Below are positions 100-63,800 of a DNA stretch of 64,000 nt, one piece after another. This DNA comes from a virus: the IMG/VR virus record IMGVR_UViG_3300026157_000001, positions 1-64,000 of that record, one strand, 5' to 3'. Made by a program: the position numbers and the translations under genes. The notes under the pieces are model-generated. The model had not been told where the DNA came from, did no database searches, and saw only the letters and a list, made by a program, of their open reading frames with translations. Each line of letters starts with the position of its first letter. Position 1 is the first letter of the stretch.

Positions 100-276
100 T
101 TATCCACCGAACAATGTTTCTTTAAGGGTTTTCTTATTAACTTTCACATTCTTGTCCATGGCTTCTTTTTCAGCCAGTCTTCTAATATCTTCCTGTATCT
201 GTCTGAGTACAGAATCTTCTTCTACGACATCTTTATTTCTAATTAATCTTTTAGGCTTAGGTATAGGCTTCGACAT
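100..276 (-). CDS. Small basic/acidic unknown late protein
   Basis: A 58-aa protein beginning M-S-K-P-I-P-K-P, with a charged helical middle (EEDSVLRQIQEDIRRLAEKE) and a lysine-rich tail ending in F-G-G. An upstream in-frame ATG at 297 would overlap the preceding gene by 41 nt; the internal ATG at 276 is preferred because the overlap is then only 20 nt. It ends in TAA. It is the last complete gene of the head/connector operon visible here. Function unknown; a small tail or connector protein is possible from position alone. Confidence 0.55.
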   Translation of the reverse strand: MSKPIPKPKRLIRNKDVVEEDSVLRQIQEDIRRLAEKEAMDKNVKVNKKTLKETLFGG

Positions 277-1063
277 TGTATTCGTATATTTCGTCACTTA
301 TGTGGATTAAACTTAACTGTATTTGCTGCTCAATAGGAGCTCCTAATAGTTCTAGGGTTCTTACCCTTTGAGCATAGTACCTTTTATCTGTTTTAGGGTC
401 TATAATAACGTCGCCTATTTCAATTGGTGGTTTATTAAGCATAGTTAATATAGAATCGCTAGGATAAAACTCTCCTCACTCTGTAATTTGTTTTATAGAG
501 GGTGTAGGGTTTAGCATAGCTGTGACTACCTGTGGTGTAAAAAAGCCCTCTCTTCAGCCAGTTCCTCAGCAGTCACAATCTGCGCATACTTCTGTGTTTG
601 TTCTAAACAAAATAGGATCTCAAGCTACATCGCATCGCTCTCCCCAAGATCTACGCTTTAATAGAATAAAGTCTCGACCTGACCGTGCATCCAATGCGCA
701 CTTTTTATAATTATATATTCTTGACCATCTATAGTTAGGGACTTCATCATTTAGATAGGCATAGCCCCCGCTGGGAACATAGGCTATTTCACTTGTAGAA
801 GTGTTAGTTACCTTTAAACGATAATACCATTTACGGGTGCCGTGGGCTAATCCGGATACTGTAACATCGTCATAGGTATATGTATCTGCAGCTATTCCAC
901 TTGCCACAGTATCATAGTCTGATAAGGTTTCAGAAGGGGCCTGAGACTGTAAAATATCTACTTGATAGTCTGTCAGGTCTTCTTGTGTTGCCTCGAAAGC
1001 TCATTTAATTTCGAGCTCGTTAGGTGTATATCTTTTTACGGTGAGTTCTTTTAAATCTAGCAT
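257..1063 (-). CDS. Fibronectin-III-like virion protein with TGA-encoded Trp
   Basis: A single 268-aa frame once TGA is read as Trp; five in-frame TGA codons lie at 1001-1003, 620-622, 566-568, 554-556 and 476-478. Residues ~1-100 look like an Fn3 domain: the first TGA sits in N-E-L-E-I-K-W, the beta-strand whose Trp is the Fn3 hallmark, followed by D-Y-Q-V-D-I and K-W-Y-Y-R-L-K-V strands. A Cys-rich segment (residues ~145-175, C-A-D-C-D-C) may bind metal. It starts directly after the stop of the upstream gene and ends in TAA. Fn3 modules are common in phage head decoration and tail proteins, and a neck/tail structural role is inferred from the position two genes after the capsid gene. Under the standard code it would be broken into six pieces. 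Confidence 0.75.
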
Positions 1064-1564
1064 TTACCACCAGTTGTCCCAATATTCGCTCTCTACTCCT
1101 CCGTAGCCTCCGTCAATATTTTTAGAACGTTTAACCGCTTGTACTTTACGTCTATAGTCGGCTATTAAAGTATTGAACCATACTGTATATCTTCCAAATT
1201 TATCTTTGTCTTTTACAGTTATCCCTCCGGCATCATTGTATGTCAGCGTGTTTCGTGCTGAGCCTATGCCTTTAGAAATTAAAACCTGTATAACGGCTCC
1301 CATTCTTAAAATACCTCAAGGCACTTCAGCAATGGTGTTATACTGTAAATCTACAGGCTCAAACCCATAGTTTATTTCATCTCATGCATCCTCTAACGCC
1401 ATATAAAGCTCTCAGTCAGTACTCTCTTCAACACCTTCTAAATCGTTCTGTGCTACAGTATCGTCTAAAAAGTCTCTAAGTCTTCTAACATACGGAGTAT
1501 ACTTGGGCGGGATGTCAGCATCTTCGCTATTTGTAAAATCTACGTTTGGGTCTAGTTCTGCCAT
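1064..1564 (-). CDS. Probable head-tail connector/neck protein
   Basis: A 166-aa acidic protein beginning M-A-E-L-D-P-N and ending Y-W-D-N-W-W, then TAA. Three in-frame TGA codons (1412-1414, 1382-1384, 1316-1318) must be read as sense to join it. The N-terminal half is helical and acidic; the second half has a V-I-Q-V-L-I-S strand and a basic helix (Y-R-R-K-V-Q-A-V-K-R). It is the first gene after the capsid terminator and has its own TTGACA-N17-TATATT promoter with only 5 nt between the -10 box and ATG. Its place directly downstream of the capsid gene fits a head-completion protein; sequence similarity is not evident to me. Confidence 0.6.
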
Positions 1565-1569
1565 GCTTT

Positions 1570-4517: not shown

Positions 4518-6380
4518 CTAAGAGATTAATTCTTTATAGATTATATTTATTGTTTCCGGGTTCAAGTTGTCGATGCCCGCAGTCTTTGGTACTTCAGCAT
4601 TGAAATATCCAGAGGACTTTTTCTTTTTTACTTTTTTGGCCTTTAGTGAACTTTTTGCATCGTCTATTGAATGGCCAATACCTTTTGAGACTCCTCGAAT
4701 AAAACCCGTGGCTCCGACTGCTGTCAAGAGGGGGTTACGTCGAACAAAGTCTTCAGCGTCGCTTAGCGGCTGACCTTTTCGGGCCTTGGCTTCGTTTTTA
4801 GCAGCCATATAATAAGAGGTAGGCGCTGCTAATAAAAAGGTTCCCAGCGTTTTTTCAAACGGGGAAGCTTTGGACGCATGCTTAATATTAAAAATTTCTT
4901 CGTTAACCGGTTCCAAGGCTTCTTTTTGTTTATTCTCTATTGCTATGCCCATGCCTAATCCTGCTACAGGTGCTATCCATGGATTCTTAGCTATAAACTT
5001 AGTGAAATTACTGACATTTGCACTGTTGCCAAATATTTTAGCATAACCTGCATATAGAGCTCCGACAGATGTCATTAAGGGGATGGCGTTTTTTACACCA
5101 CTTCCTGCTGGTCGAGGCTCATCATCAAATAAAAGGCTATTTATAAAAGACTGTTCAATCTCTTGTCGGTTAGGATATAACTCGACACCCTTACTTTTTA
5201 TGTTAGCACTCTTCTCTATGATTCTATTAATAATAGCTGGTTTTGTCAAGGAAAACTTGGAAATATCCGGTTTTATTTCGTTTGCAACCTTCTCATTTAC
5301 ATAATCAGGGCCGATATTATTGATCTCCGGTGCATCTTTTGGGCTGGTCTCGAAAACGAAACCTTTTTCTTCCAAAAGTTTTGCCAGTTTTCTGTTTCCA
5401 GTTGTGTATAACGCGAGCTTTTGAAAATCCTCTCGTTTTGGGAGGATTCTTAAAGCACAAAATGTTGATAAAGTTTCGTTAAGCGGATACTGAGATAGCT
5501 TCTCGATCTGCTCATCTGTAAAATTTTCTTGTGAATCTAATATGATTCGTTTTGGGTCTTCTTCAATGGCGTCTATTTCGCCGGCATTAATTTCTTTCTT
5601 AATTGAGGCATGCTTCTTATCTGACATTAAATTTGCGGCCTTCTCCATAGTTGCCTCGTTGTCGACTTGTGCGGTCGCACCCGGTCCGGATGCATCTTCT
5701 GCCATTTTACCAAACCCAATAGGTGCCATAATTGCTGCCAGTGGATCTGCTGGAATAGTTACAATCGAAAGGTCAAAGAACCTAGGCTTTGTATTAATAG
5801 CATATACACGTCTACCGTCGTCAAGTATTTTGTTCATCTTGTTACGAAGATAGTCACTGTATTCTTTTCTAGTTCGTGCTTTCTTTCCTGTTATAGAGCA
5901 TACGTCATAAGGTACTTTACATCCCATTGATAGTTTGATGTTCATGCCTTTTTTCATATTAGTCATTAATTTACAAACGTCCGGGTGGGACTCTTGAAGT
6001 TTAATGACTGTCTCTACTCTTTTCATGTGAGGGTTATAATAAGAATAAATAACCTTGCCCATAGATTTTTTAGGATCTTTGTTTACATGATGTTTATAAA
6101 CGTGACCGTGATCTACAAACGTATGGTGGTATTTTTTAAGAGCCTCTTCTGGAAAGAAGTCACCATTTCTATTTGGTCCATAATATTCTCCAGCTGTAAG
6201 TGCATTGGCTAATGCATACACGAATCCCGGCTCACGATCTAGTGAGTCAAGAAATTGGGCAACCTCGGAGGCGTATTCTGCTGTTTTGACTAAGCCCTCT
6301 GTTTTAGAAGGCTCTGGCAAAATAGAAAAAATCTCTTGGTCATCCTGTGTTTGGATATACTCAGCTGTCTTTTCTATCAT
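4518..6380 (-). CDS. Prohead maturation protease with C-terminal membrane-like extension
   Basis: 620 aa. Residues ~20-225 resemble the herpesvirus-type/U9 prohead protease: A-N-A-L-T-A-G-E-Y-Y-G-P-N-R-N-G-D-F-F, a histidine segment (F-V-D-H-G-H-V-Y-K-H-H-V) followed by G-K-V-I-Y, the serine strand I-K-L-S-M-G-C-K-V, and F-F-D-L-S-I-V-T-I-P-A-D-P. H and S in those segments are the likely catalytic residues. The remaining ~390 residues are unusual for this family: they hold repeated K-x-A motifs, two hydrophobic Gly/Ala segments (residues ~440-490 and ~510-560) and a lysine-rich stretch. The stop is TAG; the ATG overlaps the preceding TAA (TAATG). It should process scaffold, capsid and perhaps the K-x-A-containing internal proteins. 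Confidence 0.75.
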   Translation of the reverse strand: MIEKTAEYIQTQDDQEIFSILPEPSKTEGLVKTAEYASEVAQFLDSLDREPGFVYALANALTAGEYYGPNRNGDFFPEEALKKYHHTFVDHGHVYKHHVNKDPKKSMGKVIYSYYNPHMKRVETVIKLQESHPDVCKLMTNMKKGMNIKLSMGCKVPYDVCSITGKKARTRKEYSDYLRNKMNKILDDGRRVYAINTKPRFFDLSIVTIPADPLAAIMAPIGFGKMAEDASGPGATAQVDNEATMEKAANLMSDKKHASIKKEINAGEIDAIEEDPKRIILDSQENFTDEQIEKLSQYPLNETLSTFCALRILPKREDFQKLALYTTGNRKLAKLLEEKGFVFETSPKDAPEINNIGPDYVNEKVANEIKPDISKFSLTKPAIINRIIEKSANIKSKGVELYPNRQEIEQSFINSLLFDDEPRPAGSGVKNAIPLMTSVGALYAGYAKIFGNSANVSNFTKFIAKNPWIAPVAGLGMGIAIENKQKEALEPVNEEIFNIKHASKASPFEKTLGTFLLAAPTSYYMAAKNEAKARKGQPLSDAEDFVRRNPLLTAVGATGFIRGVSKGIGHSIDDAKSSLKAKKVKKKKSSGYFNAEVPKTAGIDNLNPETINIIYKELIS

Positions 6381-6880
6381 TACATGAACAAGCTTCCAGC
6401 TCCTAATAGGTCAGCTCCTTCGTCTCTTCCCATGTTGTCTTCGATCTTAGCTAGGGTATCATAAGTATCTATAGTTGGTCCACCTAGATCTGGTCTGACT
6501 CGTGCATTAATGTTTTGAGTGATAAATCCGCCTGCTGCTATTGGGTCTCTGGCTAGTCGAGGTGAAGTTCTATATAGGGTTCCTCATAGCTCTGCTACTT
6601 CTTCTACATCCTCTTCCATTAGCGCTGGGTTGGCTTTTAACATTTCTTCAAAATATTTAGGCTCAATAGCTTTCATATACTTTCTTTCTACGAGCTCTGA
6701 TAGCTTATTGGCAAAACGTGCTACTATAACAGCACCACCAATAATTCCCACTATTTTTAAAGCGTCCATCGGAGATTTTCCGACCGCTGCCACCTTCTCG
6801 ATGGTGTCTACACGCATTTGATGCGCTGCTGCTTTTTCGGCAGCTATTTTGATAAGTTCTTTTTTCTTATTGATATCCAT
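6380..6880 (-). CDS. Late protein with one TM-like helix; TGA-encoded Trp
   Basis: 166 aa once TGA at 6584-6586 is read as Trp. It starts M-D-I-N-K-K-K-E-L-I-K-I-A and has a Gly/Ala/Val hydrophobic helix at residues ~42-57 (I-V-G-I-I-G-G-A-V-I-V-A). The part after the TGA (G-T-L-Y-R-T-S-P-R-L-A-R-D-P-I-A-A-G-G-F) continues for 67 residues to a TAA that overlaps the protease ATG, which strongly argues that the downstream part is coding. It carries I-K-I-A and E-K-V-A motifs. Role unknown; it lies in the head module. Confidence 0.65.
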
Positions 6881-7892
6881 AAGTTCTTTTTAATTTGTTT
6901 TGTAGATCAATCTTATTTTTGAATTGTGCTGCCGCTGCAAATTGTTTAGGGTTCTTACCTTTATAAAGGCCAATTCCATACATTCCACCACCTGCGGTAA
7001 TAACAGGATGTTTTTTACCAAATCTAAGAAGATTTGCCAGCGCACCTGCTGCATAACCTAAAGAGGTTCTCGCTCTACCTAGTTTTTCCAAGGTTCCATC
7101 TTCTGGAATAAGTTCAGCAATTTTTTCATAATGGTCTTTATAGAATAAGGCTGTTACGCACTCATTGTGTAAGTCGTGGACTCTTTGGACCAATTTATTT
7201 TCGTTGTTAATTTTTTGGCCGGCATACTTCTCAAGGTCATTTCCTTTTATCTTAATGCCATCTTTGTCTAAATCGTGTGAGATTTCTTCTACTATATAAT
7301 CTCCGAACTCAGACGCTTCTTTGATTGTATATTCTAGTGCTGCGGCGTCGGTGCCGGATAGGTAAGCTTGTTTTACTGTAGAGTAGATCGGCTGAAGCCT
7401 GCTTTCAATCCTAATGCCATTCTCTAGTACATTAGATTGTGCTATTTTTAGATGGGATAACAGGTCAGCTGTTTTGTTATAATTTTTCCAGGCTGGAATA
7501 TCTTCTTCCTTTTCTGCAGTTTTCTCTTGCTTGGCTTCTTCATGTTTTTTGGAAGCTCTCTTCTCCTGCAGAAGTTGGTGAGCTCAGTCTTTTTTAGGAG
7601 CCTCTAAATAGTCTTTTCCTTTAGAAGCTGTTTTAGAGCTGGAGGGCTCTTCATCAATTACTTCATTAGGGTCGGCAACGTCAAACTCTATATAAGAGTC
7701 TTGGTCTGCTGTCTTCATAAGTTCTAGGTATGTTTTCACATTAGCAGCTTCCGCTACCCTGTGTACTTGATTTTGATTTAACCCATGGAGTGTAGACACT
7801 TTTTCCAGTCCATCTGTAAGAGGGATCTGTCGGTCTAAGTATTCCTTAGATATTTGGGTTCCTAATTTTTCTAATTGTTCCGGCTTAACCAT
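6867..7892 (-). CDS. Unknown 341-aa head-module protein; TGA-encoded Trp
   Basis: A single frame from ATG 7892 to TAA 6867 when TGA at 7584-7586 is Trp; the reading frame before and after it is uninterrupted. The protein is helical and charged with many K-[TIV]-A units (M-K-T-A, E-K-T-A, N-K-T-A, E-K-I-A); residues ~275-310 form a Gly/Ala hydrophobic segment (Y-A-A-G-A-L-A-N-L-L, I-T-A-G-G-G-M-Y-G-I-G). It has a TTGACT-N17-TATATT promoter 5 nt from its ATG and is the first gene of the transcript that continues into the protease and capsid genes. It is too short for a typical portal. Confidence 0.65.
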
Positions 7893-9662: not shown

Positions 9663-10467
9663 CTTCTTCTAAATTTCGTTTTGATTTATACTCTAAAAGG
9701 TCCTTAAAGAACTCTCCGTTCTCGTCATATTGCAGAACTTTATAAATAATATTTTGTTTACTGTTCCTGCCCGGACCCCAGTCAGAAGAATACGCAATTT
9801 TTCTGTCTTTATCAACTGATTCTACAAAATCTAAAGCATCTTGGAAAAGTGTCCTAACTTTTTCTTTTTGTCTTTCTACTTTATAATATTCAAATAAAGA
9901 TTCTCTAGGATTGTTTTTAACCATACTAGAAAGCTTACGCTTCTCTGTTAAATAATCTTTTACAAGTTTATTGAAATGTCTTACTTTAGCGTCAGCCACT
10001 AAGAACTCTGACCAGAACTTGGCGTATGTTGGTGCCATGTCTTTTCTCTCTGGTGGTTCGTTTAGCCATTCATCTTCCATGACATCATAAACGCCGAAGT
10101 CAATAGAAGCTAAATTTTCTGCTGTGTCTTTTCTCCACTCAGCTAAGAAATAACTTATCACACGATTAGTGCCTTTTGCTATTCGTCCGTTATATTTTTT
10201 AGCTCCGTGAGTCTTTGATTTCCCGGGCTTAAGGCCTTCGATGGCAACCATGATATCAATATCACTTGTATCACTGTATTTATAGCCCGTTAATGAGCCC
10301 AACATATAAACTCCCCTTAAAGGCCCGTCTCCAGCATCTTCAGCAATTTCTTTTGCGGTAGTTAAAGCTTGTCTACGGATCTCCGGATACATCTTCTTGT
10401 CTTGATTCCAAATGTCTGGAGATAATGAATCCCTGAGTCTTTCTATTACACTAGCTGGTTTATACAT
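9598..10467 (-). CDS. Nucleotidyltransferase (Pol-beta superfamily)
   Basis: 289 aa. Residues ~54-76 hold the NTase signature: M-L-G-S-L-T-G then S-D-T-S-D-I-D-I-M-V, i.e. the G-S helix and the D-x-D metal-binding pair; a third acidic residue is expected in S-I-D-F-G-V-Y-D. The C-terminal half is helical and basic, with R-K-L-S-S-M-V-K and K-S-K-R-N-L-E-E. It could transfer a nucleotide to protein, RNA or a small molecule (MNT/aminoglycoside-type or tRNA-modifying); the substrate is not evident. It overlaps the bS21 gene by 65 nt and the upstream gene by 8 nt. Confidence 0.7.
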   Translation of the reverse strand: MYKPASVIERLRDSLSPDIWNQDKKMYPEIRRQALTTAKEIAEDAGDGPLRGVYMLGSLTGYKYSDTSDIDIMVAIEGLKPGKSKTHGAKKYNGRIAKGTNRVISYFLAEWRKDTAENLASIDFGVYDVMEDEWLNEPPERKDMAPTYAKFWSEFLVADAKVRHFNKLVKDYLTEKRKLSSMVKNNPRESLFEYYKVERQKEKVRTLFQDALDFVESVDKDRKIAYSSDWGPGRNSKQNIIYKVLQYDENGEFFKDLLEYKSKRNLEEDASKSKRQGREPRESPTDIQE

Positions 10468-11293
10468 CGTCTTCGTTTTCTACCTCTTTAATATGTTCAA
10501 TAGGTTTCTCGTCTGTAGAGAAAGTCTTAATTTTAAATTCAAAGTCTTCAAGAATGTTGTCGGCGTTTGCTCTTTTGTCCTTCTCTATAGTATCGATACG
10601 GTCGGTAACCTTAATGGTTAAGTTAGCCCAGCGTTGTGCAACATCTGGACGTATCTTACTTTGCTCTTTAAAGTTATAGTAAGAGTCTTGAGCAATATCC
10701 CGTAGCATGTCTGCAAAATCTTTTTCAGGAGTTACTCCTAATTTCCATAATAGATGCTGCTTATCTCCTTTTAATGCAATCTTATAATATTTGCGAAGCT
10801 GTGGCTCGTTAATACCCTTTACATAGTTTTGACGATCTTTTAAGGTCCACTCAGAAACGTTAAAGAAATATTTAAGAAACATCTTAACGTCATCAGAGGA
10901 ATACTCCATATTATACTTACCGTTGACGATAAGTTCTATATCTTCGTCTGTAATAAGGGCCAGGGCCATAGATGTGATAAGACGGTACATCAGCGGGTCA
11001 TTTAAAATCTTGATGGCACCGTCAAGGCTCGGGGTGTCTTCCGGGAAATCGAAGTTAGTAAAATGGACGAAACCTTCTACAACGTCGTGATCTCTTATTC
11101 AATCTGGGTCCGCGGGTTCTGGGTTCTTCCTGTCAAAATACTCTGGAGCCTGGCTACGTAATGTATCATATACAATTGTTATAGCCTTTTGTGGAATAGG
11201 CTGATCGTAGTCTTCTAGTTTTTCTATCAATCCATCAACTGAAAACTTAGATATTACTAAGGTTTCAATAAACTTTAAATGTGGTATTTCCAT
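10460..11293 (-). CDS. Unknown late protein; TGA-encoded Trp
   Basis: 277 aa with TGA at 11099-11101 read as Trp (context E-P-A-D-P-D-W-I-R-D-H-D). Helical and acidic, ending E-V-E-N-E-D-D-V. The start overlaps the stop of the upstream gene by one base (TAATG). The protein looks globular, with no membrane segment and few K-x-A motifs, so it resembles an assembly factor rather than an internal protein. No family recognised. Confidence 0.6.
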
Positions 11294-11915: not shown

Positions 11916-12764
11916 TTAAACGTTTGAGGGACTAATCATAGAATTGCTTAGTCGCCGTGTACTGTTTCGTGTTCCTTTTTCTAAAGTCGTTTTTGTAATC
12001 TTAGGTGCTGCCATAGTTGCGCCTATAGAGGTTGTTGCTCCACCCATAAAACTTTTGTTTTTTATAGCACCTTTAAAGCCTCCCAGGCTTTTAGTCCCTG
12101 TAAAAGTGGCTCCTCTAGCAAAGTTACCTAAATTTATATTTTTTAAAGACTTGAATGCCTTTATACCTAAATTCAAAATGCCCCCTATAGCTGCTGTCTT
12201 TTTAATCTGAGTCGGGCCATAGTATTCTTTTCCCCGGCCAATATTAATTGGGCGGTGAGTTCAGCTTTTAGTTAGATACTCGATCGCATCGGAAGTAGGC
12301 ATCCGCCTACTTCTACCAAACTCTGCGGGATCCGCAGAGTGGTATAACTTTGGCAAAATTTTAGAAGCATTTGGGTCTGTTTTAATAGGAATGAGAGCTG
12401 CTGTTTTCTTTTGCTCTTTTTCTATTTTATTGGCTGCTGCCATAAAAACAGGATAACCGATGGCTCCTGCAGCTGTACTTTTTATAAGCCGAGGGCCTGT
12501 TCCTCTGTATAATGTTTTCATTGTTTTAGCATCTGGGCGCAGGTCTCTTAATTTTATTTTCTTTCCAAAGTCTGTATTAGCCTGGGCGTCTACAGCAATG
12601 GTATCAAGGGGTTGAGTTGTTAGTGTAACTGCTGCGCCTGATAGACTCCCTGCCATGAAGTCTTTCTTAAAATCTTTCCAAAACTTTTGTTTAGCCTTCT
12701 CTTCTGGTGTGAGCTCAGGCTTGGTAATTACTACCGGTATTGGTTTTTGTTTGTCTTTTTCCAT
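11916..12764 (-). CDS. Late protein with mitochondrial-carrier-like repeat; TGA-encoded Trp
   Basis: 282 aa; TGA at 12261-12263 read as Trp (Y-L-T-K-S-W-T-H-R-P) joins two fragments. Residues ~38-112 look like one half-repeat of a mitochondrial carrier: M-A-G-S-L-S-G-A-A-V-T-L, then Q-P-L-D-T-I-A-V-D (family motif P-x-[DE]-x-x-[KR]), then L-Y-R-G-T-G-P-R-L-I, then a small-residue helix. Real carriers have three such repeats and a basic residue after P-x-D-x-x, which here is Ala. The second half has K-K-T-A-A-I-G-G and glycine-rich segments as in other internal proteins. The resemblance may be convergent. Confidence 0.55.
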
Positions 12765-13090: not shown

Positions 13091-14351
13091 CGCCTTCGTT
13101 TTTCATGGAGTCTTTAGCTAGCTGTGAAATAATTTTGTCTTTAATTGCATGCTCTTTTAAAGCCGGTGCAAGTCCTAGTGTTGGAATTCCAGTTAAATAC
13201 GGATGTTTTAAAATAAAAGAATCAGACTGATGCTGTCCGATACTACGTCTTACAAACTTCTCTTTATCTTCGCCGAGGTTATAGTTGCCACCCAGTCGTT
13301 TCTCTATGTCTGATACGTCTAAGGCTCCTTTCTTAACAAGATTTTTTACCTTTCCGGAATCCTTTAGATATTGACCTCCTACAGCAGTTAGTCCTGCACC
13401 TAAGCCTACTGTACCTCCAAAAGCAGCTCCCTCTGCAATTTCTTTTGCTGTGGGGCCGTTATCGGGTAGCTTTGGGTTTAAGGCTGTAGCAATTCCTCCT
13501 GCTGCGGTACCGCTTAGGGTAGTTGTAGCAATTATTTTTGCTGGGCTAAAGCTGGCTTCTTTAATTTTCTTTGCTGCAAATGGGGTAGCTGCTGCTCCGC
13601 CTAGGCCTATTCTAGCTGACCATGTTTTAAAGCCTTCTTTCCAAACCTTTCCTCTGGCCTCTTCCCAAGCTTTTTCGGCATCTTTATTTGTCTTTCTGGC
13701 TTTTTGCTTAGCTCCGCCGGAAGCCTCTTCTAGTTTTTTAGAGGTTTCCGTTAAACGCTTTCCCAGCGAATCCATCTGACCTTTTGCTGCTTTATAGTTT
13801 GTTCCCTTTATAGCAGACCATAGGCTTGATGTTTTAATAACTCCTTCGCCCTCTAATATTCTAAGCTTTGCTCCTAATGGAAATCGCGGATCTTGTAACA
13901 TTCCTCTGACCACATTAGACTCACCGGCTCGATAAATTTGTTTTGCTTTTTGTTTAACAATCTTTTGGTCTTTCTTTTTTGAGTCATAAATCTCTTTAGC
14001 TCCAACACCTGCTCCAACGGCTACCGGTGTTGCCACGGCGGCTTGTGCCATTCGTGTACTCTTCTCAATATTCTTAGCAGTGCCTTCCATTTCAGCAAGA
14101 TCTTTTTTGTTTTTTCTAAGATCTTTTAATTTTTGAAAGGTGCTACGGTCATCAACAGCTATTTGATTTTTACCTAGCTCTTTGGCTTTTGCCCCTTTAG
14201 GGACATCGTCCATTTTTCTAACCGTCTTTTGGCCTATAAACCACGGGTTATCTACTTTTCGCTGTAAAGCTTGGCCCCTTACTCTTGCATTTCGTAAAGT
14301 CTCCCCACGAATTAAATCGTAGGCTCCTTTAGCTTTTACTTTTAATCCCAT
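13065..14351 (-). CDS. Large basic internal virion-like protein with glycine-zipper segments
   Basis: 428 aa, rich in Lys and Ala. Hydrophobic small-residue helices lie at ~108-122 (A-A-V-A-T-P-V-A-V-G-A-G-V-G-A) and ~275-325 (T-L-S-G-T-A-A-G-G-I-A, F-G-G-T-V-G-L-G-A-G-L-T-A-V-G-G). Between them are long charged helices. This layout is that of internal or ejection proteins, not of an enzyme I recognise. The stop is TAG and the start overlaps the preceding stop. One of a set of similar proteins in this operon. Confidence 0.55.
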   Translation of the reverse strand: MGLKVKAKGAYDLIRGETLRNARVRGQALQRKVDNPWFIGQKTVRKMDDVPKGAKAKELGKNQIAVDDRSTFQKLKDLRKNKKDLAEMEGTAKNIEKSTRMAQAAVATPVAVGAGVGAKEIYDSKKKDQKIVKQKAKQIYRAGESNVVRGMLQDPRFPLGAKLRILEGEGVIKTSSLWSAIKGTNYKAAKGQMDSLGKRLTETSKKLEEASGGAKQKARKTNKDAEKAWEEARGKVWKEGFKTWSARIGLGGAAATPFAAKKIKEASFSPAKIIATTTLSGTAAGGIATALNPKLPDNGPTAKEIAEGAAFGGTVGLGAGLTAVGGQYLKDSGKVKNLVKKGALDVSDIEKRLGGNYNLGEDKEKFVRRSIGQHQSDSFILKHPYLTGIPTLGLAPALKEHAIKDKIISQLAKDSMKNEGDVYRLYIN

Positions 14352-14680
14352 TATTTAAAATACCTCTGGCCTTTATCGTTTATTGGTTTTGCATAGCTTC
14401 CAATTAGATTTGTATCTATGCCTTGTTCTTGTAGCGCTCGTCGTCGTCTAGCCGCTCTTCCTACATAGTAAGAACTTGTTGCAGCTGCTCCTCCTGCTAT
14501 AAGAGGGAGAAACCCTCAAGGCTTGACAGGGTTAGATAAACCTGCTGCTACTCCAGAAGCCGCTAGTGATTCTATGATAGACCTCTTCCTATGCTCTTCT
14601 AGTAAATGTGGATTCTCTTTGTAATGCTTGAACAGCGCTCTGTCCATCGCATCCAATTGGCGTCGTTGTGAATACTGCAT
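14351..14680 (-). CDS. Small late protein with glycine-rich helix; TGA-encoded Trp
   Basis: 109 aa once TGA at 14516-14518 is Trp (N-P-V-K-P-W-G-F-L-P). It begins M-Q-Y-S-Q-R-R-Q-L, has a small-residue hydrophobic segment (L-P-L-I-A-G-G-A-A-A-T-S-S-Y-Y-V-G) and an Arg-rich run (R-A-A-R-R-R-R-A-L), and ends R-Y-F-K, TAA, overlapping the next ATG. It is too fragmented to be found with the standard code. The ATG is 5 nt from the -10 box of a late promoter. Confidence 0.6.
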
Positions 14681-17844: not shown

Positions 17845-19117
17845 TAATTTTTCTTCTGGTAAACTCTGCTGCTGTTCCTGTTCCGCCTATACCCAAGCCA
17901 ATTTTAGCTGCTGTGGGGCTATCTAACCTTCCGGTTAATTGTCTGTATTGCATCTTGGGGCTTTTCTCAAATGTTCCGGGCTTAAATTCGGGTCCTCCTT
18001 TAGGTACATATGCTCCCCAAGAACCGCTGTTATCATTAATTTCAACTATATGTTTTTTACCAGTTTTGCTATCCACTAATACATCGAGGCCCAGGATCTG
18101 ATTTTTAGCGTCTCCTTTGGTAGACTTGCTGTAATTTTTCATAGCTTTCTGTACATAGGCTTCTAATTCAGGATTATCTTTTTTGACATTAATCTCCTCG
18201 CCTATTGTCTTTTTACCATTTATCTGTTTTACATAGCCCTGTGTTGTAGAAGCTTTGCCGCCTTGTAGGGCAACATGCACTCTATACTCTTTATCACCTT
18301 TTATAAGGTCTTGTGCTATATAAGATTTCGGATTGTCCGCTAAGGTTTCTAAGTCTTTTATAGTCTGTTTTTTTAATTTGCCAGGATTATTTTTATATAA
18401 ATCTGCAAACTCTTTTAGCTTGTCAGGTTTGCCCTGGAAGCCTGCGCCAAACCCTTCGCCGCCTCTCATCTTAATAAATACTTTTTCTCCCTGAACCGCA
18501 TCTGCGATAGAGTCCAGCTTTTCGGCCTTGCTCATATCTGCATAATTTTTTCCTGTTCTTTTTGTTTTGTTTTTCAAAACATCTGCTACCAGCCTAGACT
18601 TTGGAGTATACCCCTCAAATTCTTTCATTTGGGAAAAAGTATATTTGTCTTGAAGCTTGTCTAAGAATTCACTCTTATCTTTGTTATAAATAATATCCGC
18701 TTCTACTTTATAGTCTGGTTGTTTCGCTTTTTGTGTAAGTGTGCCTACACCGGTTTCTTTAGTTGGTGACCAGTCTGGATGGTTCATAGCAACATCGTCA
18801 TAGACGGTCCCTCTCATCTTTGTACCCTTAGGTATTTTATTGGCTTCGACCTGTCGTATACCTGCCTGGCTGTACCAGTTTTTAAGTTTGTCCAGCGGGT
18901 TTTCCGATGTTAGTCCTCTAACGTTATAATCGTCCCCGGAAGCAGTTTCTGAAACTATTCGGGTAACTTTGCCTTTGGACATTTTTTGTGCTTTACGTAC
19001 TTCTGGTATCTTAGACAATAACCATGGAGCTTTGGACACTCCATAAGCTCCTGTTCCAAGAGCTGCGCCTATACCCAAAGATTTTAAAAGTTTTTTATCG
19101 TCTTTTTTATCTGCCAT
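17825..19117 (-). CDS. ATP-grasp domain virion protein
   Basis: 430 aa. Residues ~210-375 carry ATP-grasp features: K-V-F-I-K-M-R-G-G-E-G-F-G-A-G, then S-Y-I-A-Q-D-L-I-K-G-D-K-E-Y-R-V-H-V, and L-G-L-D-V-L-V-D ... H-I-V-E-I-N-D-N-S-G, where the D and E-x-N are the expected metal ligands. The N-terminus is a hydrophobic glycine-rich helix (L-G-I-G-A-A-L-G-T-G-A-Y-G) and the C-terminus another (I-G-L-G-I-G-G-T-G-T-A). It is a paralogue of the ATP-grasp half of the following 858-aa protein; both are next to each other in one operon. It should form an amide or similar bond using ATP; substrate unknown. Confidence 0.65.
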   Translation of the reverse strand: MADKKDDKKLLKSLGIGAALGTGAYGVSKAPWLLSKIPEVRKAQKMSKGKVTRIVSETASGDDYNVRGLTSENPLDKLKNWYSQAGIRQVEANKIPKGTKMRGTVYDDVAMNHPDWSPTKETGVGTLTQKAKQPDYKVEADIIYNKDKSEFLDKLQDKYTFSQMKEFEGYTPKSRLVADVLKNKTKRTGKNYADMSKAEKLDSIADAVQGEKVFIKMRGGEGFGAGFQGKPDKLKEFADLYKNNPGKLKKQTIKDLETLADNPKSYIAQDLIKGDKEYRVHVALQGGKASTTQGYVKQINGKKTIGEEINVKKDNPELEAYVQKAMKNYSKSTKGDAKNQILGLDVLVDSKTGKKHIVEINDNSGSWGAYVPKGGPEFKPGTFEKSPKMQYRQLTGRLDSPTAAKIGLGIGGTGTAAEFTRRKINERKNR

Positions 19118-37514: not shown

Positions 37515-37526
37515 ACTATTGTGTGG

Positions 37527-37548: not shown

Positions 37549-37578
37549 CACTAAACCCGTTAATTTTAATATAACGAA

Positions 37579-38482: not shown

Positions 38483-38487
38483 ATAGA

Positions 38488-41472: not shown

Positions 41473-41514
41473 TGTATTTTTGTTGTGTTGTCTTTATGTG
41501 TTGCTTCTGAGTTT

Positions 41515-41543
41515 AATATATTCTTTGAGTAGCTATTAGTCAA
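41515..41543 (-). promoter_or_regulatory. Late sigma70-like promoter
   Basis: TTGACT (41538-41543) and TATATT (41515-41520) on the minus strand with a 17-nt spacer. Here a ~40-nt leader separates it from the ATG at 41472, unlike the near-leaderless copies. Confidence 0.65.
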
Positions 41544-41550
41544 ACAGATT

Positions 41551-41862: not shown

Positions 41863-42100
41863 TATTATCCCTGTTTATTAATTTGATTGAGACGTCTTCG
41901 GTTAAAATTCTCCTTTCATCGAATATTCTTAGTGTGTCACTTACTTTAATAATCATACCTTGTGCGCATAGTATATAACAAGTAGATCTGTTGCCCTGAG
42001 CAGTGATATAGTCATCGTCTGTCATACCTACCATGAATTCATTTTCGGTCTCGCTTTTAAACAAGCGGTTAATTAAATCTAGTGCTTCGTCGGCTTCCAT
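41855..42100 (-). CDS. Small late protein, possible baseplate component
   Basis: 81 aa, begins M-E-A-D-E-A-L-D-L-I-N-R-L-F and ends K-L-I-N-R-D-N-N-G, TAA. It starts 1 nt after the stop of the spike-like gene. Alpha/beta with two Cys (S-T-C-Y-I-L-C-A). Role inferred only from the neighbourhood. Confidence 0.5.
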   Translation of the reverse strand: MEADEALDLINRLFKSETENEFMVGMTDDDYITAQGNRSTCYILCAQGMIIKVSDTLRIFDERRILTEDVSIKLINRDNNG

Positions 42101-42101
42101 G

Positions 42102-50682: not shown

Positions 50683-50940
50683 ATGAAAGACCATAATATT
50701 ATCTTTTTTCAAATAAAAGCTATGTTAGAACTAACACTTGAGTTTAGTTTGAGAGAAATTCCTAACCCACTTTCTAATAAAGTGCCTACTCAAATCTATG
50801 CAAGTAAGGGACGAGCAAGTTTTGCTAGAATAGAAGTATTAGACCCAAACCGCGTCCGTTATGGGTTCAACAACAGAGTAAATAAAAGGCTTCTTGAAGA
50901 ATATAAAGAGTATCTAAAAGAAATGGGATTTGAAAAATGA
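50683..50940 (+). CDS. Small unknown early protein (ATGA end)
   Basis: 85 aa, begins M-K-D-H-N-I-I-F-F-Q-I-K-A-M-L-E-L-T-L-E-F, ends G-F-E-K followed by TGA-TAA. The TGA is in an ATGA overlap with the next gene; if read as Trp the protein just gains one residue. An N-terminal helix with the pattern of hydrophobics and Glu recurs in the following small genes, which suggests a paralogous family. Function unknown. Confidence 0.55.
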   Translation: MKDHNIIFFQIKAMLELTLEFSLREIPNPLSNKVPTQIYASKGRASFARIEVLDPNRVRYGFNNRVNKRLLEEYKEYLKEMGFEK

Positions 50941-51158
50941 TAACAGCGTATATACAAGCACTTGAGAATTTAGTAGAACGTCGCCTCTCTGAAAATTTAA
51001 GGAAATCCCCGGAGTCATCTGTCAGGTCACCTTCGCTTTCCAGGCGAGTAGCTGTAAACCCTTTAATAATATCTCAAGGTCCGGCAATTACTGAGTCTCA
51101 CCGCAAATTTTTACAAGACCATGAAAAACTTTTAAGACAAATAGGAATATTACCATGA
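50937..51158 (+). CDS. Small unknown early protein (ATGA end)
   Basis: 73 aa, begins M-I-T-A-Y-I-Q-A-L-E-N-L-V-E-R-R and ends I-G-I-L-P, TGA; a Trp reading would add W-K-A-P and end at TAG. ATGA overlaps at both ends. Basic middle (S-L-S-R-R-V-A-V-N). No family recognised; the N-terminal helix resembles that of its neighbours. Confidence 0.55.
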   Translation: MITAYIQALENLVERRLSENLRKSPESSVRSPSLSRRVAVNPLIISQGPAITESHRKFLQDHEKLLRQIGILP

Positions 51159-52670: not shown

Positions 52671-52831
52671 GTGCTCTAGAGTATGACGTAACACTCCTTA
52701 ACCCGATGGAACACCCTACCACAGAACGCATAGATCATAGATATTCGTCATGGGCGGAATATATGGTAAATTGGAGCCGCAAAGTTACACCTACTTACAA
52801 GGCTAAAATAAGGAGGGCATTCTGTGTATAA
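52661..52831 (+). CDS. Small unknown early protein
   Basis: 56 aa, begins M-E-L-S-A-L-E-Y-D-V-T-L and ends K-I-R-R-A-F-C-V, TAA. It overlaps the previous gene by 10 nt and the next by 8 nt, continuing the chain of coupled genes; an AGGAGGG near its end serves the next gene. It uses TGG for Trp twice. No family recognised. Confidence 0.5.
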   Translation: MELSALEYDVTLLNPMEHPTTERIDHRYSSWAEYMVNWSRKVTPTYKAKIRRAFCV

Positions 52832-53465
52832 ACAAGCTGTTTTGCTGTCATCAAAGGGAAATCTTTATTATAGTACAAACTTTTATCATATGGCATTAAA
52901 GCCTAAGTTTAAGTTTAACCTTTCTATCTTCAGACAGTTTAGCCCTCCGGGCTTTAGTGTGGGCTCCCCTTTTATCTTTAATGATGACGGTACTTTACCT
53001 GACAGAGTGTCAGCAGACCTTAAAGAAGAAGGCAATGAAATCCTATACTTTACCGACCGTAGAGACTATAAAAACTTTTTAGCCAGAAACAGACTAACTC
53101 CACACCCTGCATTCTTAGACCGGAACTATCCAGGACGTATAGACCCTTATCTAGCCTGAATAGCCAGACCATATACAATGGTTGAGGATGCTAATAAAAC
53201 TCGGTGATATCTCGACTATCGAAAGATTCCTATCGTCTCGCACACCGACTTACAGAAAACATGGTTGACACACTTCTTTGATTCGCACATAGAGGCCCGC
53301 TTCTTAAGCCCTAACGGTGCCGACACAGATTATCAACCCTTACCATTCTTATATACACTTACGATCTCTAAGGCGTTTTTTATAGCCTTTTCTGGAAAAG
53401 TACCGATAAAGGCAGCATGGTCTTTTATGGACCAGAGCGAATTACTTGAGAATCTTTTGGTATAA
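52824..53465 (+). CDS. Unknown early protein with two TGA-encoded Trp
   Basis: 213 aa from GTG 52824 (AGGAGGG 7 nt upstream) to TAA 53465 when TGA at 53157-53159 (P-Y-L-A-W-I-A-R) and 53205-53207 (N-K-T-R-W-Y-L-D-Y) are read as Trp. All three pieces are in one frame with no TAA or TAG, and the sequence after the TGAs (K-I-P-I-V-S-H-T-D-L-Q-K-T-W-L-T) looks like normal protein. This is an early plus-strand gene, so the recoding is not confined to late genes. No family recognised. The stop lies in the next promoter (CTTTTGGTATAAG). Confidence 0.6.
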
Positions 53466-56139: not shown

Positions 56140-56604
56140 ATGCTAAATAATCCTATAGATCCTTTATGCCCGGAACAATCTTTAATTGGTTTATTATCGA
56201 GTCTTGGAATTTTAGATGATACTTTGTATTTTAACCTAACCCGTAGCCTCGTAAGAACCGGCAAGATTCGATATACCGACCAACATATGATAGAAGCTGT
56301 TTTTCAATCTGTAGACGGCCAACATCAAATTACAGCTGTTAAAACCAGAAGGACAAAACTGGGCCAAGATATTGGAATACTCGCATATTTCCACAGACTC
56401 TTCCCAGGCCCACCTGAACTATTAGCTCAAAGAGAATATAGAACAACATCAGATTTTAATAGAGATTTAAGATCTGCAGAAGGTAAAAGACTAAATTTAC
56501 GACAACATAAGACAACATTAAACACCAACACAATAACTTTTCCACATAAACTCAGACGAGGTCTCGCGGCAATTACAACGACGGGACATTTTAACTATAT
56601 ATGA
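56140..56604 (+). CDS. Unknown early protein (ATGA end)
   Basis: 154 aa, begins M-L-N-N-P-I-D-P-L-C-P and ends H-F-N-Y-I, TGA, in an ATGA overlap with the nuclease gene; a Trp reading would add W plus seven residues and stop at TAA. Basic C-terminal half (K-R-L-N-L-R-Q-H-K-T-T, H-K-L-R-R-G) suggests nucleic-acid binding, in line with the nuclease partner. Confidence 0.55.
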   Translation: MLNNPIDPLCPEQSLIGLLSSLGILDDTLYFNLTRSLVRTGKIRYTDQHMIEAVFQSVDGQHQITAVKTRRTKLGQDIGILAYFHRLFPGPPELLAQREYRTTSDFNRDLRSAEGKRLNLRQHKTTLNTNTITFPHKLRRGLAAITTTGHFNYI

Positions 56605-59094: not shown

Positions 59095-60396
59095 TTGAAT
59101 AAGCTAATAGGAACAATAAAAGATATGGCGTCTGCAATTATTGTAGAAACCGTAAGACAACTAATAATAAATACAACTCAGGAACATATCACAGTAAAAG
59201 TCTCTGAGTTTTTTGATAGAAATAAAGTATGGGTGCAAGTTAATCACTCAAATACATTATACAGCGCGCTGTTATTTTTCTTGTCCGAACGAGTAAAACA
59301 AGACTCTGTACAGAAATTTACAGCAGCCATCTTAAATAAATATAACACTAGCCATTTAGAACAGAACCGAAATCTTTTGATAGCTCCCGGAGAGGACGAA
59401 ATCACGGTGACCTATAAAAACTGCGAGTTTAAATTTCACCGTACAGAGCCTATATCATCTAAAGGGTCAAGCTCTGCAGAATCATTAACACCAGAGGATG
59501 AAAAACCAGGATTTAAAATTACCACCCATAAACGAAACCGAGCAGTCTTGGTCGAGCTTCTCAAAGAGGCTTACTCAGACTATACTGCTGAAGTGCGCAC
59601 AGGAGCTTCCGTCTATTATACTCGCTGGGGCTCTGATTTTTTCCGTGCGGAGACAACAACGCTCCGACCGTGGGAAAGCGTCGTGTTGCCAAACGAAAAA
59701 AGAAACACCCTAGAAAAACATATAGAGGATTTTTACTCTTCTAAAGAATGGTATACGGACAGAGGCATACCTTATAGAAAAGGCTTCCTCTTGCATGGCC
59801 CGCCCGGAACAGGTAAAACATCAATTGTAAAAGGGCTAGCTAAAAAATATAATCTTGATATTTATATCATAAGCTTCTCTTCTACAAACTTTGATGAAAG
59901 CACACTGACCGACTTATTCAATGATATACCGGAAGGTGTAATTGTTTTATTTGAGGACATTGACGGATTATTTAAATCTCGTCAGGACCCGAATAAATCA
60001 CCGGAAGCTGATGACAACCCTATAAGCTTTAGATCCTTTATTAATCTATTAGATGGAGTTATGTCACCGGAAGGCGTATTAATCTTTATGACGACAAACT
60101 TTAAAAATCGCCTTGATGAAGCATTAATCCGACCAGGCCGTTGCGATGTGAGAATGGAGATTGGTTATATAGACGAAGAGATGGCTAAAGATTTCTTTCG
60201 ATATTTCTATAAGGATAAAGATGATTTAGACGATCTAGTCGTAGAACGGTTTTGGAGTGTAATCGGTGGCACACCAAAGTTAACCATAGCAGTACTTCAG
60301 AGTTACCTTACTAAATATAAAAACGACCCCGGACAAGCAGCCACGAACGTTTATTTTGAAGAGTTCTACACGGATTATAAAAAGGAGAACCAATGA
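59095..60396 (+). CDS. BCS1-like AAA+ ATPase
   Basis: 433 aa from a TTG (ATG at 59125 is an alternative). Residues ~185-400 match BCS1-type AAA ATPases: L-R-P-W-E-S-V-V-L-P, G-I-P-Y-R-K-G-F-L-L-H-G-P-P-G-T-G-K-T (Walker A, ~230), V-I-V-L-F-E-D-I-D-G-L-F (Walker B), S-F-I-N-L-L-D-G-V, M-T-T-N-F-K-N-R-L-D-E-A-L-I-R-P-G-R (sensor and Arg finger). A ~150-residue N-terminal region precedes it, as in BCS1, whose AAA ring moves folded proteins across a membrane; the mitochondrial TM anchor is not evident here. In bacteria such proteins also occur in conflict systems. Substrate unknown. The end is CAATGA overlapping the next start. Confidence 0.75.
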   Translation: MNKLIGTIKDMASAIIVETVRQLIINTTQEHITVKVSEFFDRNKVWVQVNHSNTLYSALLFFLSERVKQDSVQKFTAAILNKYNTSHLEQNRNLLIAPGEDEITVTYKNCEFKFHRTEPISSKGSSSAESLTPEDEKPGFKITTHKRNRAVLVELLKEAYSDYTAEVRTGASVYYTRWGSDFFRAETTTLRPWESVVLPNEKRNTLEKHIEDFYSSKEWYTDRGIPYRKGFLLHGPPGTGKTSIVKGLAKKYNLDIYIISFSSTNFDESTLTDLFNDIPEGVIVLFEDIDGLFKSRQDPNKSPEADDNPISFRSFINLLDGVMSPEGVLIFMTTNFKNRLDEALIRPGRCDVRMEIGYIDEEMAKDFFRYFYKDKDDLDDLVVERFWSVIGGTPKLTIAVLQSYLTKYKNDPGQAATNVYFEEFYTDYKKENQ

Positions 60397-60671
60397 CAGA
60401 AACATTAATTATCAGATCATTAATACTGGTTGATGATGATGGCCACTTTAACACATTTGCGCTGTCAAGCCAAAGAGGGGCAATATACCAATTCTTAGTA
60501 CACAACCTTACACATCGTGACCGGATAAATCTATCAGCTGAAGAGATAAAAGAGGGCGTGCTCCATGAAGACTATGAAGAGTTTCTTAGTTTTCTTCAGG
60601 AGCATATCCTGCAAAGAGGGTTCGCAGAACTAGGTGATATAAGACATAACCTGGATGATGACCCCTTCTAA
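60393..60671 (+). CDS. Small unknown early protein
   Basis: 92 aa, begins M-T-E-T-L-I-I-R-S-L-I-L-V-D-D-D-G and ends N-L-D-D-D-P-F, TAA. Acidic, helical. Coupled to the BCS1-like gene by ATGA and overlapping the next gene by 17 nt, so it is a possible adaptor. No family recognised. Confidence 0.55.
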   Translation: MTETLIIRSLILVDDDGHFNTFALSSQRGAIYQFLVHNLTHRDRINLSAEEIKEGVLHEDYEEFLSFLQEHILQRGFAELGDIRHNLDDDPF

Positions 60672-60894
60672 AAACATATACCTGTTACAGATAATGAAAG
60701 GATTAGAAAGCCGTTTATACTTTGAGCACTTTTGCACATATGATAAAACTCCAGACTTAAACCCCTGTAGCGACTGTGGGTGGGCTGTAAAGTACTGCGA
60801 AAAGTGCACTAAACAGCTGCCGACATATGCTCTATTTAAATCGGCATTAAAGTATAAATGCATAAATTTAGACAACCTTAAACAGAAAACATAA
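60655..60894 (+). CDS. Small zinc-ribbon protein 4
   Basis: 79 aa, begins M-M-T-P-S-K-N-I-Y-L-L-Q-I-M-K-G-L-E. Cys4 in C-S-D-C-G-W ... C-E-K-C at ~38-52, and a basic C-terminal helix. Same plan as the three genes at 57395-58037 (helix, ribbon, basic tail). One base separates it from the rIIA-like start. Confidence 0.55.
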   Translation: MMTPSKNIYLLQIMKGLESRLYFEHFCTYDKTPDLNPCSDCGWAVKYCEKCTKQLPTYALFKSALKYKCINLDNLKQKT

Positions 60895-60895
60895 C

Positions 60896-63800
60896 ATGTC
60901 ATTACAAGAAACCGAACGGTTTAATACCAGAGAAGGTACGAAGGGTATGAGTAAAGGAATTGACGCATCTTCAGAAAAGATGGTCATGGATATACTCCAG
61001 GCTACCCAGTATGCAAAGCCTGAAGAATCTACAGTACGTGAGCTAGCATCCAATGCTGTTGATTCACAAAGAGAAAAAGAGATTGCGTATGATATTTTGT
61101 CAAACGGGGCTGACCCTGACGACTACTTTGTCGAACGAGAGGGAGCGCAGTACGAAAGCTCTAAATGGGATCCGTCCTATTTTGATATAAACTATTTCGA
61201 CATGACGAAAACAAACGTTCTCATTCAATATATAGAGAACGCCGGCACAGGCTATTGCGACGAGTTCAGTGTAACTGACTATGGCGTAGGTCTGGGCATG
61301 CCAAGACTCCGGGGTTATTTTAACTTAGGATATTCCTCAAAAAGAAATACAAAACATGCGTTAGGCGCTTTTGGTATCGGAGCAAAAAGTCCGCTGTCAA
61401 CTCAGGTGCCATTCTATACTCTAGAAACTGCGCATAACGGCCGGAAGTATAAATTCAATATCTATCCCTATAAAGTAGAGAGTACAACCCCTCGCTTTAA
61501 TATGGAGACAGAGGATGAATACCCAACGCAGAATATAGGCACAGAAAAAGACCCCTATATCATCCACTATATTCCAACGGATGAGAAAAACTTCTGTAAA
61601 GTATCAATGGGTGTCAAGCGCCATAACCGGCACAGATACCGTGATGCGGTAAAACACCAACTACTGTATTTTCCCAATGTAGACTTCCAGTATAAATATG
61701 AAGGCAACGACCATTGGAATGAAATAGAGTTTCAGGCAGATATTCTACACAACAGCGACAGCCTGATTATATCCTCTAACATGCAGTATAGTAAACCACA
61801 CATTGTGGTAGTAAAAGAGAAAGGATCTGACATGGGCGTTACCTATGGCACGATTGATTTCCAAGAGCTTGAGATGGAAACCCTACGTGGTTCTATCGGC
61901 TTTAAATGTCCTATTAGATCGGTCGTGGAAGACCGAGAGACTGGTGAACGAAAAGTAGTACAAGACGGCGTTTCTGTAAATCCTAGAATTTGGTTATTAA
62001 TATAACTTTTTGTACTTTAGATTATGAAAAAATCTAAAGCAGGTATTTATAAAATAAGTTTCCAATGTAGCCATTTAAATGTATACTACGGAAGCACAAA
62101 TAAGTTTAACAGGCGTAAATCTCAACATTTACATCTTTTAAGACGAGGTAAACATAGTAACCCTATATTACAGAGTTACTTTAATAAATATGGAGAAACC
62201 TCATTTAAATTTAGTAAAGTTGAGACAATCTTAGATGAAGACGAAGAGTATATAGTAAAGCGAGAGCAGTATTATATTGATGCTTTAGAATCTAACCAAG
62301 ATATAAAAACTCTTAATTGTAATTTGGAGGCTGGAAGGCCTCCTTATACATGAACAGAAGAAAGACGAGAGGAGCTCAGAGAGCGTAATAAAAATTATAA
62401 GTGGACAAAGGAAAGACGAGAAAAGCACTCTCGTATAAAACAAGGATCCACACGCTCAGAAGAGGCTAAAGAAAAAACCTCAGAATCTTTAAAAGAGTTT
62501 TATTCTCACCTAAGAACAGAAGAAAGGGCCTGCCCTTATTGTAATTCGCTTTATACAAGGAAAGTTGGTAAGCGATATAATAAAACAAAGAAGCAAATGA
62601 ATCAGCGATATAAATGCACCGACTGTGACAAGAACTTCTTTAAACCTATCAAAAAGTAATTAATAACTCGCTGGGCCTTTATAGAGCAATCTATAAAGTG
62701 CATTGGGTGAATTGCTGGAAGGCGAAAGCTAATCAGCAGCCAAGCTAGGGGTACACCCCTAGAAGGTTCAGAGACTAGTGGAGGGGTAAAGCCCCCTTAA
62801 TGACCACAATAGCGCCCAACATCTCTCAGAGATGATGATATAGTCCACCCCGCTTTATAAGTGCGGGTTGAGCAGAGAAAGCGTTGTCTGGGACGAAAAC
62901 ACCAGAGCTTATATCCAGAAAGTAATTAAAGATGCTCAGGATGAAGCATCAAAAATTATCCAGGCCGAGCTAAAAACAGATGATTTCTATACATGGCTGC
63001 AGCGCAGCACAGAGATTATCAATCAGATGAGCGCCTTCTCCTATCAGGAAACAAAGCTAACTATATTAGCAAAGATTGTTGATAAGCATAAGCTTCAAAC
63101 AAAGTTTCCAGGAGACTCACGCATTATATATAAGCATAACCCGTCTACATTCTTTAAGGATATAGAAGTAAAAGCTATTGAAAAAGACCAGATCTATAAA
63201 AATGGCAAATATAAGACAAAGATAAACCGGGATGATGTACCAAACTGGGGATACTTTAAAGGGTCTTTAGTGTATGAGATGACTGAGGACGAGCGCCACA
63301 GTGTGACGAAAGATCTTTATATTCAGCACTTAAAGGATAGCAATCACTTTATTACAGTAAAGAAAGCTACCGATGAGCAAGTAAAAGAACGAATAGGTAA
63401 ACGCTTTAAAGATACTCAGGTAGCCACAAGAGGTGGTGAAAAGATCACCAAAAAGATTAAAGAAGAAATCGCATACGCTATAGAACAGCGAGACATTATT
63501 TGGGATGCGCTATTTGGAAGTGATCATATAGAGATTGAAAACTATGCTGACATTGAAGTAACGGATGAGTTCCGAGAACTGATGAAAAAGCAGAAGGAAG
63601 AAGCGGAAGAAGAAGAACAAGAAGACAAAATGGCAAATATGACGCCTAAAGAGCGTCGTGAAATGCTTGGTAAGACTGTTTGCTATTCTTTCAAAAAGAA
63701 CCCAAGAGCTACCGGGTACAGCAGCTCTAAGGACTGGGTGCTATCAAAGAAAGAGCCAGTCGTAAATGACTTGGTCAATTTTGATAAACCGGTTATCTAC

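Follow-up and report, generated by a model that had tools for sequence, protein, structure and literature searches.

The window analysed here is a 64,000-nucleotide stretch of viral DNA, bases 1-64000 of the 68,769-base record IMGVR_UViG_3300026157_000001, which is linear and incomplete. In this genome the codon TGA probably has two readings (we put the probability at roughly 85%): a standard stop in the early genes and tryptophan (Trp) in the late genes, with the switch likely made by a late-transcribed tRNA that has a UCA anticodon. The phage is large and tailed, and its genes include one for a sheath-like tail protein. The terminase (TerL), capsid, BT4734-like primase, exonuclease and rIIA genes were assigned through family searches, and the sheath-like gene, at the left end, by visual inspection only. 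A second record from another sample (G001) represents the same phage, with 99.87% identity across 24,603 bases, and extends its left side by 3,017 bases, giving 71,786 known bases in all (ca. 72 kb); extension from both contig ends via viral contigs gained nothing new. The genes of the window fall into three groups:

257-26409, minus strand: late block 1, 25 virion, packaging and ligase genes; 20 TGA and 62 TGG read as Trp, no TGA stops
38544-43802, minus strand: late-strand block 2, five genes; no TGA as sense codon or stop, nine TGG
26518-64000, plus strand: early genes (primase, exonuclease, AAA ATPase, rIIA and others); 121 TGG, eight genes with a TGA stop

In-frame TGA codons of the late genes

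The 20 in-frame TGA codons of late block 1 interrupt 10 of its 25 genes, with at most five in any one gene of the window, and account for 24% of the Trp codons of the block. They are listed with the residue number of each product:

1001-1003, minus strand: W21 of the 257-1063 product; Trp in 32 of 33 standard-code relatives
620-622, minus strand: W148 of the 257-1063 product; relatives mostly Trp
566-568, minus strand: W166 of the 257-1063 product; Tyr, Phe or Trp in relatives
554-556, minus strand: W170 of the 257-1063 product; TGG in six of six aligned recoded relatives
476-478, minus strand: W196 of the 257-1063 product; likewise TGA in relatives L040-L042
1412-1414, minus strand: W51 of the 1064-1564 product
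1382-1384, minus strand: W61 of the 1064-1564 product; TGG in L043
1316-1318, minus strand: W83 of the 1064-1564 product; TGG in L043 and L044
6584-6586, minus strand: W99 of the 6380-6880 product; TGG in four recoded relatives, Trp, Phe or Tyr in others
7584-7586, minus strand: W103 of the 6867-7892 product; variable column
11099-11101, minus strand: W65 of the 10460-11293 product; Trp in seven of seven aligned relatives
12261-12263, minus strand: W168 of the 11916-12764 product
14516-14518, minus strand: W55 of the 14351-14680 product
20355-20357, minus strand: W249 of the 19107-21101 product
19500-19502, minus strand: W534 of the 19107-21101 product
21480-21482, minus strand: W438 of the DUF5662-containing 21111-22793 product
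21192-21194, minus strand: W534 of the 21111-22793 product
25114-25116, minus strand: W432 of the ligase product, in the S-W-A-L-P-K-G motif of the LigD 3'-phosphoesterase; Trp in PDB 3p4h and in relative G003
25030-25032, minus strand: W460 of the ligase product
23626-23628, minus strand: W928 of the ligase product

Past the first TGA, the codon-usage score was best of the six frames in the same frame in all 10 affected genes, and the in-frame codons are thus confirmed as real and not due to chance. None of the 30 genes in the two late-strand blocks ended in TGA; all closed with TAA or TAG, at ends that adjoin the following gene. Base-by-base comparison of G001 with the window over 19,498 bases revealed no difference in TGA, and since this second assembly has the same TGA codons they are not sequencing errors. 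The left extension in G001 added two further TGA in one gene and one in the sheath-like gene. A sequence-only reading of the window had reported at least 23 in-frame TGA codons, genes that run on in the same frame across them, and TAA or TAG ends for the minus-strand genes of both late blocks. The window holds exactly 23 (20 in late block 1, two in the plus-strand gene 52824-53465 and one in a GIY-YIG endonuclease gene), and the other two observations were borne out in 10 of 10 and 30 of 30 genes, respectively. The three sites at which that reading had required Trp are in-frame TGA codons at 1001-1003, 25114-25116 and 62351-62353, the last of which is matched by TGG at 62402-62404 in the second copy of a W-T-x-E-R-R repeat.

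The residue inserted at TGA was examined in alignments where both codons, TGA and TGG, had been replaced by X to remove any pull towards Trp. Standard-code relatives carried Trp in 107 of the 284 cells of masked TGA columns (38%) against a background of 0.8%, close to the 43% (277 of 646 cells) in masked TGG columns; many of these relatives are near copies of one another, which makes the cells interdependent, but the same agreement is seen in the individual columns. Two distant relatives had an aromatic residue at 10 of 18 TGA cells (background 10%), and recoded relatives exchange TGA and TGG at identical columns. The Trp predicted at 25114-25116 in the LigD-type motif aligns with a Trp of PDB 3p4h. 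Glycine, arginine, cysteine and serine were ruled out as the residue by the masked-column counts (glycine 1, arginine 2, cysteine 0). Because the masked TGA columns are rich in Trp, as the TGG columns are, these alignments, the comparison that the sequence-only reading had proposed, give strong support to TGA being read as Trp in the late genes.

Other features of the late genes were also noted. The 11916-12764 product has an above-cut-off match (E 1e-6) to the mitochondrial carrier repeat of Pfam, which is odd for a late phage gene, and the long protein encoded at 15268-17844 has a weak ATP-grasp match below the cut-off. Repeated KTA, KVA and KIA motifs occur in many late proteins between 3065 and 23224, and also in relative G002; they could be a processing signal. 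The DUF5662 domain is found twice, in the late gene 21111-22793, which carries sense TGA, and in the TGA-free early gene 28003-28512. The ligase/LigD-type phosphoesterase gene (23224-26409) holds a LAGLIDADG intein between G36 and S415, at the identical place to an intein in G003. A search of the late strand for TATAAATA, a late promoter motif of the T4 type, showed no enrichment.

TGA in the early genes and in late-strand block 2

On the plus strand, TGA ends eight early genes, three of them at stops beyond position 64000 in the 68,769-base record. At seven of the eight, the stop and the start of the following gene share an ATGA; the remaining stop, at 68625 of the record, overlaps the following gene. 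Those in the window are:

32756-32758, plus strand: stop of 32246-32758; next gene starts at 32755
50938-50940, plus strand: stop in ATGA overlap with the start at 50937
51156-51158, plus strand: stop in ATGA overlap with the start at 51155
56602-56604, plus strand: stop in ATGA overlap with the start at 56601
60394-60396, plus strand: stop of the AAA ATPase gene, in ATGA overlap with the start at 60393

The longest extension past an early TGA stop, 85 codons after 32758, is non-coding in that frame. Sense TGA relative to TGG numbered 20 to 62 in the late genes and 3 to 121 in the early genes (Fisher's test, p 1e-6), and TGA stops were found in 0 of 30 late against 8 of 52 early genes (p 0.02). 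Translation with code 4 instead of code 11 raised the coverage of late block 1 from 0.893 to 0.975, whereas that of 26451-38500 went from 0.852 to 0.843, so this comparison of codes bears out recoding for the former stretch only. These early stops imply release factor 2 (RF2) activity. The sequence-only reading had held that TGA is recoded across the phage, which does not stand given the early TGA stops and the scarcity of early sense TGA, and had likened the case to code-4-type phages. The likeness extends to Trp at TGA in the late genes, but with eight early genes ending in TGA the genome has two readings rather than plain code 4 or a genome-wide reassignment.

The three sense TGA codons on the plus strand belong to two genes, one of which is tied to a group I intron in a split rIIA-like gene (60896-64610 of the record):

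52824-53465, plus strand: readthrough gene with TGA at 53157-53159 and 53205-53207; its extension scores best in frame
62024-62659, plus strand: I-TevI-like GIY-YIG homing endonuclease with one sense TGA, at 62351-62353
62638-62865, plus strand: catalytic core of the group I intron (RF00028, 78 bits), between rIIA exons 60896-62005 and 62868 onward

The rIIA gene of relative G011 is uninterrupted. I-TevI of T4 is likewise the GIY-YIG endonuclease of a group I intron within an early gene, and it is made only late in infection (PMC2988022). A sense TGA in the endonuclease would fit late-only production here as well; T4 uses a late promoter and RNA structure, whereas in this phage the sense TGA would give the same effect. 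The gene 52824-53465 may be either an exception or a late-expressed gene. Among the fetched loci there were no relatives of the endonuclease or of the 52824 gene. Late-strand block 2 (38544-43802) behaves as if it were a third expression class, and its homologues in relatives G013 and G011 are likewise TGA-free.

The recoded clade and the UCA tRNA of G013

A capsid profile search returned 79 other relatives. TGA occurred within the homologous late genes of L040-L046 only, the seven closest by capsid identity, and in none of the 72 others; L040-L042 are near copies, which leaves about five independent recoded lineages. Standard-code relatives at ca. 50-60% capsid identity lack both sense TGA and a UCA tRNA. 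In the capsid tree, the window groups with L040-L043 (support 100/100), while L044/L045 and L046 lie in an unresolved fork with standard-code phages; the tree itself needs two changes, but a single recoded clade was not rejected (approximately unbiased test, p 0.31). By capsid, the named phages that come closest are Salmonella phage Arash and Vibrio phages D69, D181 and D148, at ca. 30% identity. Membership of Crassvirales was considered and dropped, as the capsid matched just four phage records, all from Vibrio or Salmonella phages; the best terminase matches were Salmonella phage Arash, Bacillus phages and Vibrio phages. TAG recoding in G002 was likewise rejected: the coverage gained with code 15 came from junk fusions, and G002 uses the standard code.

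The largest recoded relative, G013 (210,208 bases), contains L045. Its 75 late-strand genes hold 121 sense TGA and 224 TGG and have no TGA stops, whereas 23 genes of its early blocks end in TGA, mostly in ATGA overlaps, with in-frame extensions that are short or non-coding. The blocks at 7.8-36.4 kb and 154-165 kb use TGA neither way, and the second of these matches late-strand block 2 of the window. The late/early split of TGA is clade-wide. One late gene of G013 contains 32 TGA and 18 TGG, which needs near-complete decoding. As side observations, a homologue of the actin-like Volactin lies in a late block of G013 (L156:7939-8925), and the terminase open reading frames of two recoded relatives, G011:20509-22998 (L165) and G009:10573-12933 (L171), are ca. 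270-310 residues longer than that of the window, perhaps owing to inteins.

G013 also encodes the candidate decoder:

G013:65786-65883, late strand: tRNA with a UCA anticodon, 98 bases, with a long variable arm and an encoded CCA, apart from the tRNA array

The ordinary tRNA array of G013 lies on the early strand at 98-108 kb. Directly downstream of the UCA tRNA is an Amidase_2 endolysin gene; in the standard-code relative G017 the surroundings of the endolysin are the same but the UCA tRNA is absent. No UCA tRNA was present in the whole of G017 (180 kb) or of G019 (156 kb), both standard-code, and a search with the G013 amidase for more UCA tRNAs returned G013 itself only. ARAGORN labelled the tRNA as selenocysteine tRNA (tRNA-Sec). 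It resembles bacterial tRNA-Sec (RF01852) in its UCA anticodon, long variable arm and CUUCAAA anticodon loop, and differs in having a 7-bp acceptor whose end, with A1-U72, is of the Trp type; with 32.5 bits on RF01852 against a gathering score of 47, it was not taken as tRNA-Sec. The acceptor set A1-U72, G2-C71, G3-C70 and G73, which we take to be identity elements of tryptophanyl-tRNA synthetase (TrpRS), is shared solely with the tRNA-Trp(CCA) of G013 among the phage tRNAs with readable acceptors, and the first four acceptor pairs and G73 are the same in these two tRNAs. Charging of the UCA tRNA with Trp is accordingly a prediction from its acceptor stem. The G013 tRNA-Trp(CCA) has a U11-A24 pair, which a known suppressor of UGA in E. 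coli also has; the pair is normal in other bacteria too and was not used as evidence.

Alternative readings and known systems

On the preferred reading, the early genes would be read with the standard code, in which TGA is a stop, and the late virion, packaging and ligase genes with TGA as Trp. The switch would most likely be made by a phage-encoded, Trp-charged UCA-anticodon tRNA that is co-transcribed with the late genes, and full-length late proteins would then appear only once late transcription has begun. Comparison of the genomes establishes that late TGA, putatively Trp, stands where relatives carry Trp, and likewise the early/late split, the recoded clade and the tRNA gene. Several points weigh against this reading. 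The labels early and late come from gene content and strand, and sense TGA occurs in two plus-strand genes. The early blocks of G013 were read with code 11, which makes the lack of sense TGA there partly a matter of construction; the choice of code has no bearing on the blocks free of TGA or on the non-coding extensions. The UCA tRNA is known from one genome, scores 24 bits with the general tRNA model, and has a weak anticodon stem and a long variable arm unlike that of tRNA-Trp, so that Trp charging is a prediction. No tRNA of any kind was found in the 72 kb assembled of the window phage, an incomplete genome, and the partial genomes of its closest recoded relatives gave tRNA-Lys and tRNA-Met only and no UCA tRNA. 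The suppressor tRNA anticipated by the sequence-only reading is therefore present in a relative and was not found in the 72 kb of this phage; its suggestion of a phage TrpRS or release-factor change found no counterpart, as no TrpRS-family (PF00579) or release-factor (PF00472) domain occurred in the seven records searched.

The bases after TGA bear on how TGA is decoded. In a comparison made after looking at the data, a pyrimidine followed 7 of 79 sense TGA codons and 71 of 215 TGG codons in the window, G011 and G008 together (p 1e-5), whereas G013 displayed no such bias (37 of 121 after TGA, 81 of 224 after TGG). Purines on the 3' side favour suppression, and since sense TGA avoids a following pyrimidine, this context suggests that suppression in the window subclade is incomplete, with the release factor still competing. 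Mutation bias is a weaker explanation because it should have acted in G013 too. Suppression in the window subclade would probably be weaker than in G013, with host RF2 as the competitor.

The alternative that survives best, though we consider it unlikely, is that the window subclade has no cognate UCA tRNA and reads TGA through in a context-dependent manner with an ordinary tRNA-Trp(CCA) of host or phage, while G013 represents completed reassignment. The strong preference for a purine after sense TGA in this subclade but not in G013, the lack of a UCA tRNA in ca. 72 + 70 + 43 + 24 kb of subclade sequence and the count of at most five TGA per gene in the window versus 32 in G013 all speak for it. 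Five TGA in one gene would, however, demand high readthrough each time. The assembled sequences of the window phage and its nearest kin, none of which is known to be a complete genome, have no homologues of the genes that flank the UCA tRNA in G013. We give the same low credence to the broader picture of one clade at two stages of reassignment, complete in G013 through the long-armed UCA tRNA beside the endolysin, as a code switch at late transcription, and limited to context-dependent readthrough without a cognate tRNA in the window subclade.

It is improbable that TGA serves programmed readthrough instead of reassignment, each late gene yielding a short and a long protein as dosage control. 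The base following TGA is in keeping with competing termination in the window subclade, but the phosphoesterase domain contains the LigD motif Trp at 25114-25116 and would be lost from the short form, and up to 32 TGA stand in one G013 gene. Still less probable is a host that uses code 4 and is followed by the phage, the early ATGA sites then being short overlaps ended by the next TAA or TAG. Such a back-up stop does lie within eight codons at seven of the eight early TGA stops, and no tRNA was found in this phage; short back-up distances are common in the standard-code G003 too (21 of 42 within eight codons, 50%), and we make no claim from them. The ratio of sense TGA to TGG in early and late genes, the non-coding 85-codon extension at 32758 and the 23 TGA-ended early genes of G013 speak against a code-4 host. 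Assembly errors, hypermutation or pseudogenes can be set aside, for although TGG to TGA is a single transition, the codons are identical in two assemblies and common to a set of close relatives, coding continues in frame past TGA in 10 of 10 genes, and all late genes close at TAA or TAG adjoining the next gene.

The recoding described here has published counterparts. Recoding of TGA to Trp with a late-gene bias and UCA tRNAs has been described mainly in gut crAss-like phages (PMC12386605, PMC11210395, PMC10879173), and ca. 15% of the code-4 phages in one survey carry a UCA suppressor tRNA (PMC11210395). A whole-genome screen of the kind in PMC10879173, which asks for a 10% rise in coding density for genomes below 100 kb, could miss the present phage because its density rises by less than that with code 4 (0.833 to 0.898); whole-genome coding-density screens can thus overlook phages that recode part of the genome. 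As summarised in PMC10879173, Borges 2022 reported stop-codon recoding of lytic genes, with recoded codons concentrated late, and proposed control of timing; as far as that summary goes, the concentration of recoded codons in late genes here is alike. Recoding has been proposed as a timer of late genes, with most cases argued from enrichment. Here the two readings are separated by block, a UCA tRNA stands in the late lysis cluster of one genome, and standard-code relatives have neither, which opens the idea of a timer to a direct test. The bias in the base after TGA might serve as a signature that tells incomplete from complete reassignment.

The closest parallels are the zeta crAss-like phages Lera and ct1yV3, in which TGA is Trp mostly in structural and lysis genes and a UCA suppressor tRNA is present, while their near relative ctE7s22 is not recoded (PMC12386605). 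The phage of the window belongs to a different lineage, TGA is still a working stop in its early blocks, and, unlike in those phages, G013 has its UCA tRNA within the late lysis cluster and at a distance from the tRNA array. Within the literature searched, four things are new: the phage lineage, a two-code layout that follows the gene blocks, the position of the tRNA, and the signature in the sequence context of TGA.

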